Part shown: one piece after another, positions 23,148 to 33,172 of the stretch
How positions within the stretch are numbered: the stretch's first letter is position 1
How the letters are laid out: every line of letters starts with the position of its first letter
NCBI GenBank assembly: GCA_017303975.1
Contig: JAFLBG010000005.1
Coordinates: 103,353 to 139,855, forward strand
Length of the DNA: 36,503 nt
From: Bacteroidota bacterium
Lineage (GTDB): Bacteria > Bacteroidota > Bacteroidia > JAFLBG01
Direction: 5' to 3'
Made by a program: the position numbers and the translations under genes
Notes under the pieces: generated by a model
The model's input: only the letters and a program-made list of their open reading frames with translations
Told to the model about the DNA's origin: nothing
Database searches by the model: none

Positions 23148-24622
23148 ATGACATTATACCAACAAATAAAAAAATTATCCGAGGGGCAATTAAGGCAACT
23201 AGAACGGCTTTTTGTAAACTCTCCTAAAAGCTTAGCTATTTTGCATTTAATCATAAAAAGCAAGAACACGCTTTTGAATAAGGATATAATCAATAACGTA
23301 TATACCGAAGAAATTGCTTTAAAGGGGTTTAAAATAGCAGAGAATAATTTTTTTAAACTGAAAGCAAGAATAGAGCAAACTATCAATTCTATAGATACTC
23401 CAGATTCGGTAGTTCAGAATGCGGATCTATTTTTATACAATTTAAAACACACAACACTATATGATAAGAAGTGGACTGCTATTCAAGATCAACTAAAGAA
23501 ACTAGAACAATTTTTCGAAAATAATTTTATAATTGAAAAGCAGTTTTTATTGTATGAAACCATTCTTCATAAAAAAAGAGAGTTAAGCATCAACATTGAT
23601 GCCACTGAATTGAAAAAACAGGAGCGAGTTAAACGTTTATATGCCGATTTTCTTGACGCAAAAGAAGCAAGCATTTTAGGAGGGAGTTTTTACAATAAAT
23701 ATGGCAAAAATGCAGCAAATGATTATTTAGCAAAGCTCAAATACTTAACACAGAAACATAAAAGCAATATCCGCTTTAAGCTCATTTATAATTATGCCGC
23801 TTCTCGATTTAAATTAAATATTACAGTTTCCAATGCCAAAAACAAAGTTAATAAGCATATACAAACTATTAAACAAATTCACTCTGAATATCCATTAGTG
23901 CCATTGTTTGAAGATGTTAAAAACAATAAAGAGTATTTAGATTTATTATTCTTAAGCGTAGAATCGCACTATTATTGGGACATTTCGGATGTTGTGCAAG
24001 CAGAGATGTTGCTAGAAAAAAAATGTATCTATTAAAAACAAATGAAAAGTACAAATCATTTTATTTCAAAGCTCCGGATTACTCGTTGTTAATACTTATA
24101 AAAACAAGGCTACAAAAACATATAGAAGCTTGGAGAATTGCGGAGCAATATGCTCAATTTGCAAAAGAAGTTGATCTGAATTTTTTAAAAATAAAGGTTG
24201 CTTTTTCAAAAGCTCAAATTTTATTAGACTCTTATCCAAAAATGCCTGCCAGAAATATACAAAGTGTGCTTCATGATTTTGATTACTGGTATAAAACTAC
24301 AAAAGAGAGTAAGCTATCCAATCAATACTTACTCACGTATTATGTTTATTGCAAGATGCTTTTACTTTCTAAAAAATATAAGCAGGCCTATACGTATTTG
24401 TCAAATCCGGATTGCAAGCATTATATTAATAGTTTCGCTAAGTGGGATTTGCATGCCTCTATTTATAAGCTTATGAGCGAAGGTAAATTTAAACTACTTT
24501 CCGATTATATTATCAAAGTGGAAAAAGAAATGTATAAGCAAGAAAACAGTTTAGTCTTTGAAGATTATAAATGGCTACATGGCATCTGCGCCACAGCATA
24601 CAAAAACAATGGTTTGCTCTAA
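23148..24622 (+). pseudogene. Lys-rich helical protein (module copy 1), interrupted at an A8 run; possible -1 frameshift
   Basis: The first frame (23148-24035, 295 residues) and an overlapping frame that reaches a stop at 24622 together encode one protein collinear with the 483-residue paralogue at 26969. Reading EKK then MYLLKTNEKYK aligns with EKKFKLADTNTSY in the paralogue without a gap, giving ~491 residues. The switch lies in AAAAAAAA at 24016-24023, phased as A-AAA-AAA in the first frame, which is a classic -1 slippery heptamer. Nine A would also fix it. The protein is all-helical, Lys/Tyr/Leu-rich, with no signal peptide; the KIAENNFFKLKARI motif near residue 70 is shared with the paralogue. 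It resembles the helical-repeat (TPR-like) hypothetical proteins of Bacteroidota. Function unknown; its divergent position beside a surface protein suggests a linked role. Confidence 0.75.
24016..24023 (+). other. A8 slippery run at the frame switch
   Basis: The zero-frame codons are GAA AAA AAA TGT ATC TAT TAA, so the stop follows four codons after the heptamer A AAA AAA. Slipping back one base gives ATG TAT CTA and the full-length frame. No strong downstream hairpin is visible, which weakens the case for programmed ribosomal shifting. Confidence 0.6.
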
Positions 24623-26968: not shown

Positions 26969-28420
26969 ATGAACATAATTGTTTTTTACAACAACCTGTC
27001 AGACCAACAAAAACTGAAACTAGCTCGCGATGCGAAAAAATCGCCTTTAAAACAACGATTACTGCAATACTTACAACAAACAGATTCGAATAGCTTTAGC
27101 ACCAACAAAACAATAGAATACGTTTATGCAGACGAACTAAAAAATGGATTAGAATATAAAATAGCAGAAAACAGATTCTATAAACTACGAAAACGATTTA
27201 TCGAATTTTGTGAAGAAGAGAATCTAACTCCCAAAAAAGAATTCATTCTTACTGAACAAGAAAAAGAGCTAAACGAAATTTTCTTGGAATCAGAAAACAA
27301 TAAAGAGCTTAAACTAAAACGACTAAACAAATTAGAAAAAAAATGTTGGGAAAATAATATTTTCGAACTGCTGCCCAAAATACTGTTTTATCAATTTAGA
27401 CTCGGGAAACCGGTTGCAATTAGTGAATACACAACGGCATCAAAATTAGTAGCCGACCTACACACTACTCAACAAATTATAATAACGCTTCAAGAATTCA
27501 GCATTTCCATTAACTCCTATAAAAAAGAAATATATAGAGAACTAAAGCGATTAAAAACAATATATCTGGCAAATAAAAAATTTATACGTTTTAAATACAT
27601 ATACAATTATTATAGTGTTTTATGGAAATGCAACAAAAGTTTTTCAAAAAGCAAACTAGCATATGCAAGAAACTTAAATACATACACATCTATTTACCTT
27701 GAATACCCTGATGTTCCTATGATTGAGTATATGGGAAACTACAAAACCGATTTGGAAATTAGAAACATAAATCTTTTAATTCAACACTACAGATATATAA
27801 ACGATTTTAAAAGAGCGTTACTTTATATAGAGAAGAAGTTTAAACTCGCAGATACAAACACTTCCTATATGCAAGGTCAAATAAGGGTTGCAGACCATGT
27901 AAATATGATTACGTTTCTTTTAAAAAATAAAAAAACTACAGAAGCATGGGAATACACCGAAAAATACAGACAATTTTTATTCACGCAAAACAGAACAGAG
28001 TTGTATTATGACTTGTTTGTTCAACGAGCAAACATACTTATAGAATCATTCCCGAATACTCCTATTAAAAACTACCAACATATTATTAAAGGATTGAAAC
28101 AAACCCTGAAGAAAAAAGAAATACGAAAAACACCCTCAAGAGAAAATCTTATTTTATACACAATTTGTAAATTACTTTTAGTAGATACACAATTTAAAAA
28201 AGCATACACTCTACTAAAAAAGAAACAGTTAAAAGACTACATATCTAAATACATAGACTACAATTTACTGGCAACATCAATTGGTCATTTAGCAAGTAAG
28301 ACTTACACACACAACAAGAAATTTTTATTAGAAAAATACAAACACAAACTAAGTACAGCCAAAACAGAAATAGAAACGGAAGTGTATGAAAACCTATATC
28401 GTCTATTCAGCAAGTTGTAA
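26969..28420 (+). CDS. Lys-rich helical protein (module copy 2, intact)
   Basis: 483 residues, with no signal peptide or TM segment, and strongly basic. The N-terminal ~70 residues resemble the start of a family of Bacteroidota helical hypothetical proteins (SPLKQRLLQYLQQ ... YADELKNGLEYKIAENRFYK). The rest is consecutive amphipathic helices, probably TPR-like or another alpha-solenoid. No catalytic or DNA-binding motif is recognised. It is a full-length paralogue of the interrupted gene at 23148; the shared KIAENxFxKLxxR motif and the EAW-x5-YxQF segment anchor the alignment. It sits divergently beside a T9SS surface protein, as the other copy does, and its stop lies 3 bases from that of the convergent PKD gene. 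It could be a cytoplasmic partner or regulator of the surface protein; this is inferred from position only. Confidence 0.82.
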   Translation: MNIIVFYNNLSDQQKLKLARDAKKSPLKQRLLQYLQQTDSNSFSTNKTIEYVYADELKNGLEYKIAENRFYKLRKRFIEFCEEENLTPKKEFILTEQEKELNEIFLESENNKELKLKRLNKLEKKCWENNIFELLPKILFYQFRLGKPVAISEYTTASKLVADLHTTQQIIITLQEFSISINSYKKEIYRELKRLKTIYLANKKFIRFKYIYNYYSVLWKCNKSFSKSKLAYARNLNTYTSIYLEYPDVPMIEYMGNYKTDLEIRNINLLIQHYRYINDFKRALLYIEKKFKLADTNTSYMQGQIRVADHVNMITFLLKNKKTTEAWEYTEKYRQFLFTQNRTELYYDLFVQRANILIESFPNTPIKNYQHIIKGLKQTLKKKEIRKTPSRENLILYTICKLLLVDTQFKKAYTLLKKKQLKDYISKYIDYNLLATSIGHLASKTYTHNKKFLLEKYKHKLSTAKTEIETEVYENLYRLFSKL

Positions 28421-31299: not shown

Positions 31300-31341
31300 T
31301 ACGAATCATATTAATTTGTTTTACAACAACTTACGAATAAT
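31300..31341. promoter_or_regulatory. Pair of TACGAAT(A/C)AT boxes, 32 bp apart
   Basis: tacgaatcat (31300-31309) and tacgaataat (31332-31341) are direct repeats with a start-to-start distance of 32 bp, near three helical turns. The second is identical to the two boxes in reverse orientation at 32769-32799. They lie between divergent genes, 78 bases from the PKD protein start and 250 from the peptide gene start. Confidence 0.5.
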
Positions 31342-31546
31342 TAATTCTTATTTCTAAACTAAATATTGATCGTACTCTTTCGGGAATATTGATAGAAATT
31401 GGTATCTCATTTTGAATTTATACTTGATCCTAGTAATGTTTATTGCCCAAACCATGGGTGGTTAATTTTCAAAGAATCAACAACTTATATTCTGCGAAAT
31501 CCCAAATTTCAAATAATAGAGCTATTCAATAAAACAGAAAACGTAA

Positions 31547-31577
31547 TTGACTTTACATTTCTGCAAAACTAATTTTG
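31547..31577 (+). promoter_or_regulatory. Promoter of the Cys-rich peptide gene (TTG-N20-TAATTTTG)
   Basis: TTG at 31547-31549, 20 bases, then TAATTTTG at 31570-31577: the best match in the window to the Bacteroidota primary sigma consensus. The start codon lies 13 bases beyond the -7 box, so the leader would be very short. Confidence 0.65.
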
Positions 31578-31590
31578 CTAAAAATAGTTT

Positions 31591-31944
31591 ATGGAAAAGA
31601 AAAAACTCGTTTTAAGTGAAATTCAAATTACAAGCTTTATTACAAACTTAGAGCCCAAAGAGCAGCAAACTATTCTAGGTGCAATGGGTGCGGACACTAA
31701 GCTAATAAACACGTGTGCGTACACACAACAAAATGCAAATGCCTGTTATAATTATACAGCCAATAATTGTCAAGCATCTTTTACCTGCGTAACACAAATT
31801 CCTGCTAATTGTGCGTCTGCTAAAATTCAATGTGGCGGAAACTCTAGAACCAATTGCAATACACAAAATCAAGCAGTGTGTGCCTTAGAATCGGTTGTAA
31901 AACTTTGCTTTGTGCCAGCATCAGATTTAATTTTTAATTGTTAA
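31591..31944 (+). CDS. Cys-rich peptide with pinensin-type RiPP leader (candidate precursor 1)
   Basis: 117 residues. Residues 1-31 have the leader pattern of Bacteroidota pinensin-family lanthipeptides: a Lys-rich start, KLVLSEIQITSFITNL, then EEQ-like acidic/polar residues and a TILGA end in place of the common GG. The leader has no Cys. The remaining ~85 residues hold ten cysteines (42, 52, 60, 66, 74, 81, 89, 97, 106, 117), spaced 6-11 apart and rich in Asn, Thr, Gln and Ser. This is far longer than a typical lanthipeptide core. No LanB/LanC-like, radical SAM or transporter gene is in the window. It may be a substrate of enzymes elsewhere, or a disulfide-bonded exported peptide that borrows the leader. 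A good promoter and a strong terminator frame it as a single-gene unit. Confidence 0.8.
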   Translation: MEKKKLVLSEIQITSFITNLEPKEQQTILGAMGADTKLINTCAYTQQNANACYNYTANNCQASFTCVTQIPANCASAKIQCGGNSRTNCNTQNQAVCALESVVKLCFVPASDLIFNC

Positions 31945-31970
31945 GTACTATTTGGTTAGGTTAGTATCTT

Positions 31971-32035
31971 AGCGTTAGTAAAGTATTTAGGGATGCTTTT
32001 GCACCCCTAAATACTTATTTTTTAGTAACAACGCT
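31971..32035 (+). terminator. Strong intrinsic terminator of the peptide gene
   Basis: aagtatttaggg (31981-31992) / ccctaaatactt (32005-32016) is a perfect 12-bp stem. It is capped by tgc/gca around tttt, flanked by an outer agcgtt/aacgct pair, and followed by attttttag. It ends the plus-strand peptide transcript and may also serve transcripts from the minus strand. Confidence 0.85.
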
Positions 32036-32180
32036 AGTGTTGCATGCACAAATCACTATAATTACAAGCTATAGCGCTCATATTTGGAACACCACAATTG
32101 TCTTCTACTTTTGAGCTATCTCGATCTCGTATGCCAAACCCACACAAACCTGCACTAGAAAACTTTTCAAGAGCAGCTAA
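32034..32180 (-). pseudogene. Possible remnant of a third Cys-rich peptide (no start codon)
   Basis: A 48-codon minus-strand open frame between a TAA at 32181-32183 and a TAG at 32034-32036. Its translation (AALEKFSSAGLCGFGIRD then SSKVEDNCGVPNMSAIAC and NYSDLCMQH) has four cysteines and looks like a core region. It has no ATG or leader before it. It sits downstream of the minus-strand precursor gene and ends at the terminator. It may be a decayed precursor or a chance frame. Confidence 0.35.
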
Positions 32181-32332
32181 TTAAATGAAATATGAAAATT
32201 TGTTTGTGCAGCAGTAGTATCGTATTAGTTACAATTAACATTTTATACCACAATAGCATTTGACCACAAATAGACATACAAAAAAATATAGATACTAATG
32301 TAAATCTTTTTAAAGTTGCTATCAATGGGTAA

Positions 32333-32662
32333 TTAGCAAAGACCCGGAAACTTTGAACATTCTGCGTGGCCATTAGATATGCAATCTTGGGAACATTGGT
32401 TGGTCATATTGCCACAGCCCACTCCACATTCCGTCATGATTTTTGTAACCTCATCAGAATTTGTTGGTAATATAATTGTTGCGGTAATAGTACACCCTCC
32501 AAGATTACTAACTATTCCTACCAGACATCCTACTCCAACTTCAGCTAAAGTTGCCAAAATTGGAGTTGTATCGGCACCATAAATGGTTTTTTTTTCATTT
32601 ACTGATAAATCAGTTACAAAACTTTCCACTTTAATTTCCTGAAGATTTAATTTTTTTTTCAT
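32333..32662 (-). CDS. Cys-rich peptide with pinensin-type RiPP leader (candidate precursor 2)
   Basis: 109 residues. The leader MKKKLNLQEIKVESFVTDLS followed by VNEKKTIYGA fits the Bacteroidota pinensin-family pattern (KKxLxLxExKVxSFVTxL, then a TIxGG-like end). The leaders of the two peptides align over their whole length (LxEIxxxSF(I/V)T(N/D)L...(Q/K)TI(L/Y)GA) while the cores do not. The core has eight cysteines (46, 57, 79, 83, 90, 94, 102, 109), a Gly/Val/Thr-rich first half and a dense CGVGCGNMTNQCSQDC second half, so it may be processed to a ring-rich peptide or disulfide-bonded. It lies just downstream of the stand-alone LytTR gene on the same strand, with paired direct-repeat boxes 107-137 bases before its start. 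No modification enzyme is nearby. Confidence 0.8.
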   Translation of the reverse strand: MKKKLNLQEIKVESFVTDLSVNEKKTIYGADTTPILATLAEVGVGCLVGIVSNLGGCTITATIILPTNSDEVTKIMTECGVGCGNMTNQCSQDCISNGHAECSKFPGLC

Positions 32663-32768
32663 ACGTAAAATAATTGTTATTCCCTTTTGATAAAGGCAAG
32701 GGGGTTAGCCTAAATAGTAATATTTTGGCAAGTATAGTTTTAACGGGTTACTTTCTAATACGCCATTT

Positions 32769-32799
32769 ATTATTCGTAGCCAAGCAGTGATTATTCGTA
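32769..32799 (-). promoter_or_regulatory. LytTR-type direct repeats TACGAATAAT, 21 bp apart
   Basis: On the minus strand TACGAATAAT occurs twice (complements of 32769-32778 and 32790-32799), start-to-start 21 bp. Two short direct repeats at two helical turns are the known binding arrangement of LytTR-domain regulators. They lie between the LytTR gene and the peptide gene, 107 bases upstream of the latter. A 6-bp tagcca/tggcta inverted repeat overlaps them. Confidence 0.6.
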
Positions 32800-32815: not shown

Positions 32816-33172
32816 CTAGACAAACTCGGGAGTAAGGAGGGCTTTTCTAAGTACGCTTGTTTGTCTAACAGAAACAGGTATTTGCATACCATTTACTATT
32901 TTTACCATTCTTTCCAATCGGTTATACTCGTTCAGATAATTTAAATTAATAAGATACGATTGGTGAATACGAAGAAATATTTTGGCTGGTAGGCGCTCTT
33001 CAATCCAGGAAAGGGGTTTTGAGAGGAGAATAGTATTGCCATTCTTAAGGTGTATGGTAGCATAATTACTACTGGCTATAAAGTAAAGAATTTCGAAATA
33101 AGGAATGGATTTAATTCCCATCGCATCTGGGAATGCGAAAAAAAAACGGTATGGTAATATATTACTTTCCAT
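32816..33172 (-). CDS. Stand-alone LytTR DNA-binding regulator
   Basis: 118 residues from the ATG at 33172 (an upstream in-frame opening uses TTG). Residues ~22-112 form a LytTR domain: KSIPYFEILYFIASSNYATI, HLKNGNTILLSKPLSWIEER, the KIFLRIHQSYLINLNYL segment matching the family F-x-R-x-H-R-S-Y-(L/I)-(V/I)-N hallmark, and a final VSVRQTSVLRKALL strand-helix. There is no receiver domain and no TM helix, so any signal must reach it by another route. LytTR regulators such as ComE, PlnC/D and AgrA classically control bacteriocin and peptide genes through direct repeats. Here paired repeats and a RiPP-leader gene lie directly downstream, so local control of peptide expression is likely but inferred. 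Confidence 0.9.
   Translation of the reverse strand: MESNILPYRFFFAFPDAMGIKSIPYFEILYFIASSNYATIHLKNGNTILLSKPLSWIEERLPAKIFLRIHQSYLINLNYLNEYNRLERMVKIVNGMQIPVSVRQTSVLRKALLTPEFV

Follow-up and report, generated by a model that had tools for sequence, protein, structure and literature searches.

The promoter repeats of the plantaricin (pln) genes of Lactobacillus plantarum follow a TACG-type consensus. In this system, which is served by the LytTR proteins PlnC and PlnD, tandem direct repeats spaced by about 21 bp precede operons for bacteriocin-type peptides. Lactic acid bacteria are already known to have tandem LytTR boxes in front of bacteriocin genes, and the part of the plantaricin literature that is cited in PMC4847170 describes cooperative binding of PlnC to the tandem sites and conservation of the promoter arrangement. 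A similar geometry is found at the yhjX site of YpdB in Escherichia coli, where two direct repeats GGCATTTCAT form two cooperatively bound sites (PMC4847170), and at the RcoM/CoxC operators, where direct repeats about two helical turns apart are served by LytTR domains that do not belong to classical response regulators (PMC11347149). LytTR sites have no common consensus (PMC4847170); the published ones consist of two 9-11 nt repeats with 10-13 nt spacers, and those of activators are usually located upstream of the -35 element (PMC4847170, PMC11347149).

Here we analyze a stretch of 36,503 nucleotides (the window) from a Bacteroidota bacterium with a genome of 3.43 Mb, where it lies at the end of contig C5. 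In this stretch, a pair of identical boxes 21 bp apart separates a gene for a small LytTR protein from the gene for a peptide with a pinensin-type leader. The locus resembles the pln promoters in its repeats and in the type of the downstream gene, but pln belongs to Firmicutes, depends on a quorum-sensing kinase and response regulators and produces unmodified bacteriocins, whereas the window has a receiver-less LytTR protein, a pinensin-leader peptide and a Bacteroidota-type promoter. The YpdB/yhjX system differs by its box sequence, by a response regulator with a receiver domain and by its single transporter target, while the RcoM/CoxC systems differ by three repeats (TTCNNGCA/TTNNNGCN), by a fused sensor domain and by the fact that CoxC represses. 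The pinensin clusters of Chitinophaga have the pinensin-type leader (NF038180) in common with the window peptides, but no maturation genes were seen beside the latter. In the literature searched, we found no paper linking pinensins to LytTR regulation. The boxes provide a testable regulatory handle on pinensin-leader peptides, for which the genome contains 12 genes and whose control is undescribed in that literature.

The 21-bp Box Pair and the Adjacent LytTR Gene

An exact-match search placed the three exact copies of TACGAATAAT and the one-mismatch copy, TACGAATCAT, where the first-pass annotation had reported them (Table 1); no further exact copies are present in the window, and the reported spacings of 21 bp and 32 bp were reproduced as well.

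Table 1. Features of the LytTR-peptide locus (positions in the window).
Feature	Position	Strand	Basis and remarks
Box TACGAATCAT with a single mismatch, 32 bp before the 31332 box	31300..31309	+	Box search
Box TACGAATAAT upstream of peptide 1, possible non-canonical half-site	31332..31341	+	Exact match
Putative consensus-perfect promoter TTG-N20-TAATTTTG directly before peptide 1, without boxes	31547..31577	+	Promoter pattern
Peptide 1, 117 aa, pinensin-leader precursor	31591..31944	+	NCBIfam NF038180, 28.2 bits (cut-off 24)
Peptide 2, 109 aa, pinensin-leader (lanthipeptide-type) precursor, proposed target	32333..32662	-	NCBIfam NF038180, 37.9 bits (cut-off 24)
Putative -7-like element TATACTTG of the peptide 2 promoter	32729..32736	-	Match to TAnnTTTG
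Putative -33-like element TTA	32756..32758	-	TTA-N19-TATACTTG
Proximal box TACGAATAAT of the 21-bp pair	32769..32778	-	Exact match
Distal box TACGAATAAT of the 21-bp pair, proposed LytTR half-site, points to peptide 2	32790..32799	-	Exact match, 21-bp direct repeat
Standalone LytTR protein, 118 aa, proposed regulator	32816..33172	-	Pfam PF04397, 5e-19, residues 20-112

Read along the minus strand, the LytTR gene is followed, 16 bp after its stop codon, by the distal box, the proximal box, TTA, TATACTTG and the gene of peptide 2. From the start of the proximal box it is 20 bp to the -33-like TTA and 42 bp to the -7-like element, and the pair ends upstream of the former and does not overlap it. 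The putative promoter TTA-N19-TATACTTG has two mismatches to TTG/TAnnTTTG, of which the -7 part, TAnnTTTG, is documented in flavobacteria (PMC9723704), and is weak by itself. The LytTR protein has no receiver domain, with only about 19 residues preceding the LytTR domain, and neither close relatives nor orthologues of it were detected in 60 class relatives or in GTDB contigs.

As a LytTR operator we considered at least two direct repeats of about 9-11 nt separated by a spacer of 10-13 nt, and the pair, with its 10-nt boxes, 11-nt spacer and period of 21, is a tandem direct repeat of this kind. The classical LytTR consensus is [TA][AC][CA]GTTN[AG][TG], with which TACGAATAA agrees at five of the eight informative positions, AA replacing TT and the last position being off. 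The LytTR arrangement that had been claimed for this pair is thus borne out in its geometry, but in sequence the window box resembles the consensus mainly in its TACG half.

The explanation that we favor, and consider rather probable, is that the 21-bp pair is the tandem operator of the LytTR protein whose gene directly precedes it on the same strand; that this protein is the cognate one is suggested by the adjacency. Two LytTR molecules, separated by two helical turns, would bind to the same side of the DNA beside the weak -33/-7 promoter and would most likely activate transcription of the gene of peptide 2. The boxes upstream of peptide 1 would probably be sites that this protein recognizes less strongly or in another arrangement. 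The deviation of the promoter from the consensus at two positions would fit a need for an activator, and the pair is probably a LytTR activator site of an already known kind.

Parallel Arrangements in Other Genomes

A leader-alignment scan returned four loci, one of them in the Ignavibacteria MAG Clear-D13 (JACVZY010000044.1, here G731:C44, loci L126/L127, 20925-40530). The locus is a lanthipeptide cluster of class I that encodes a LanC-like protein, a dehydratase C-terminal domain, a C39-peptidase ABC transporter and a REC-REC-LytTR response regulator, and that contains about 17 pinensin-leader genes. Upstream of ten promoters of the cluster, TACGYTCACTCC-type boxes recur every 21 bp exactly, two to six per promoter; at least eight of these promoters lead into pinensin-leader genes. 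At each of the ten, the distance from the start of the last box to TTG is 19 bp, and TTG is followed by N20-21 and TAGTTTTG, TATTTTTG or TATTTTTA; nine match TTG/TAnnTTTG in full. The exact TACGYTCACTCC pairs of this 5.7-Mb genome all fall inside the one cluster (18 of 18; control, 0), and the box TACGTTCAC agrees with the classical consensus at seven of the eight informative positions. With its ten promoters of nearly fixed geometry, the cluster is a clean model for LytTR activation.

The window pair and the Ignavibacteria boxes have in common the TACG core, the 21-bp period, the orientation and a near-equal distance to the -7 element (43 bp in the cluster and 42 bp in the window). This comparison, together with the state of the ten other pinensin-leader genes of the window genome described below, backs the proposal of the first-pass annotation that the 21-bp pair is a candidate operator of the neighboring LytTR protein. 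It also suggests that LytTR control of bacteriocin-type genes by 21-bp boxes occurs in Bacteroidota and Ignavibacteria as well.

Two Saprospiraceae MAGs (L089/L128 and L133) contain, in this order, a pinensin gene, a gene for a protein of about 513 aa on the opposite strand and a gene for a standalone LytTR protein of about 145 aa. At L133 (Saprospiraceae MAG-132), a distance of about 1.8 kb separates the LytTR and pinensin genes. The sequences TTTCGTCGGA/TTTCGTCGAA (TTTCGTCGRA twice) are repeated there at 21 bp, and this repeat lies 63 bp before the -7 element, i.e., 42+21, one 21-bp step further out; taken alone, it has a p of about 0.07. A 21-bp repeat is absent from L128, the second LytTR-linked Saprospiraceae locus with the same gene order, and from L157 on contig C1, where a response regulator is 3.7 kb away. 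When pinensin loci were compared by a test devised after the window had been seen, 21-bp repeats of at least 9/10 were present at three of five LytTR-linked loci and two of 31 others (p = 0.013), and, within 90-200 bp before the ATG, at three of five and none of 31, respectively (p = 0.0014). In the genome sample, the order is represented by the window genome alone, and the phylum and class samples contain few genomes with pinensin genes. Generic TACG pairs near other LytTR genes of the class gave no clear peak at 21 bp. Taken as a whole, the comparative evidence supports a putative LytTR operator at the 21-bp pair.

The Boxes Upstream of Peptide 1

The second group of boxes fits the LytTR pattern less well. 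The 23 nt around the TACGAATCAT box are 74% identical to 31319-31341, and both boxes are oriented towards the gene of peptide 1 and away from the PKD/CHU_C gene. The latter had been suggested to be under the control of these boxes, which is not supported, since they face the peptide gene, as the boxes of the Ignavibacteria cluster also do. Neither can the 32-bp pair be kept as an ordinary LytTR site, since its spacing is outside the published arrangement, in which repeats of 9-11 nt are separated by 10-13 nt (PMC4847170, PMC11347149), and the repeat/spacer definition that we applied does not cover it. The pair is beyond chance, yet it is not a canonical LytTR site.

In one version of the explanation that we favor, the 21-bp pair alone would be functional, and the boxes of peptide 1 would serve as decoys or influence a different transcript in the divergent region; we give this version slightly less than an even chance. 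In addition to the spacing, it is in line with the distance of the boxes from the gene, at -291/-259, while the putative box-free promoter that matches the consensus perfectly is at -44/-21. On the other hand, an exact copy accompanied by one with a single mismatch is rarely found by chance upstream of a sister peptide gene (see below), with a spacing of 32 bp the two boxes still face roughly the same side of the helix, and a weak -7-like TACTCTTT is present 41 bp from the proximal one. The boxes of peptide 1 may be weaker sites or may act on a longer transcript.

Repression, Another Regulator or Chance

The same operator could also serve in a different way, with the LytTR protein repressing peptide 2 or with the pair being mainly a site for another regulator of the cell, which we regard as unlikely. 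LytTR repressors exist, as exemplified by CoxC, at whose site the three repeats and the -35 box overlap (PMC11347149), but the 21-bp pair stops short of the -33-like element. Another regulator would be available, because the genome contains two LytTR matches besides the adjacent protein, three in total; however, it is the adjacent LytTR gene that ends 16 bp from the pair, and pair-pattern scans of the 3.4-Mb genome found no second 21-bp promoter pair. The latter result also leaves the small regulon that had been envisaged for these boxes without support.

How often such boxes arise by chance depends on what is counted. As a single 10-mer, TACGAATAAT is near expectation genome-wide: it occurs 26 times, the reversed control 21 times, and of its 23 copies elsewhere than at this locus, 18 are within ORFs of at least 80 codons. 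Direct pairs of TACGAAT 19-43 bp apart (TACGAATN{12,36}TACGAAT) occur four times in 3.43 Mb, those of the control not at all. The 21-bp and 32-bp pairs of the window account for two of these occurrences, and the other two are located within an ORF (L072) and at the 3' ends of genes (L075). A looser pair pattern gave two matches versus four for the control. The genome scan that had been proposed as a check therefore left the 21-bp pair without an equal elsewhere, but did not single out the 10-mer as such.

When the 153-bp stretch that separates the LytTR gene from peptide 2 was dinucleotide-shuffled, 0.16% of the shuffles contained an exact 10-mer repeat at 20-23 bp; for the region upstream of peptide 1, TACGAATAAT with a second copy of at most one mismatch was obtained in 0.02% of shuffles. 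In a fairer test, which asked for such a cluster of any 10-mer, 4% of simulated windows contained one, and 74.7 kb of intergenic background from the same genome yielded about four independent exact 10-mer pairs at 20-23 bp. For these two reasons the pair by itself is suggestive and not decisive, and it is the gene context that decides. That the boxes are chance repeats in AT-rich intergenic DNA, to which the any-10-mer frequencies, the lack of enrichment of the single word and the position of most of its other copies in ORFs would be favorable, appears still a little less likely than the preceding alternative, since the same word is present at both peptide genes, since phase, orientation and neighboring gene are those expected for LytTR, and since an independent cluster in Ignavibacteria matches.

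Other Pinensin-Leader Genes and Accompanying Protein Families

The 12 pinensin-leader genes of the window genome occur as singles or pairs at eight places, on contigs C1, C4, C5, C6, C7, C10, C13 and C24. Both window peptides score above the curated NF038180 cut-off, i.e., the pinensin leader is present, and Pfam scans of nine window proteins revealed no LanB/LanC-type enzymes. Outside the locus, the upstream regions of nine of the ten other genes lack a box pair, and the tenth, on C7, has one TACG in 300 upstream bases and no pair. Apart from that, these genes have a single 10/10 repeat at 21 bp, a simple AAGTACAAAG repeat at C4.

A family of proteins of about 490 aa, without Pfam match, is encoded in the window (26969-28420(+) and 23148-24622(+)) and at L145:5363-6832, L160:3727-5214 and L159:1-633. 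All five detected members are in pinensin-leader neighborhoods of the window genome, and none was found in 800 kb of background; the family is possibly linked to the peptides. The 483-aa window member is predicted to be all helical, with a pLDDT of 50 that is too weak for a fold search. One could imagine that in several Bacteroidota and in Ignavibacteria a LytTR protein dedicated to the cluster, acting via 21-bp TACG boxes, switches the pinensin-leader peptides jointly, and that the 490-aa family takes part in the same circuit, for example by sensing the peptide. We consider this broad scenario improbable; if true, the peptides would be signals as well as products.

Homology between the 483-aa window protein and the 513-aa protein of Saprospiraceae was not detected. 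The window member at 23148-24622 looks as if split by a frameshift into two overlapping ORFs, 23148-24035 and 23975-24622(+). A second family, of about 510 aa, whose tested members are without Pfam match, is recognized by its LSxxEKxxFKxF start (L128:5175-6716, L133:2345-3883, L138:6475-8040, L139:7274-8830, L158:6902-9970 and L161:5850-7322); it is found near pinensin genes in several genomes and, in the window genome, elsewhere too.
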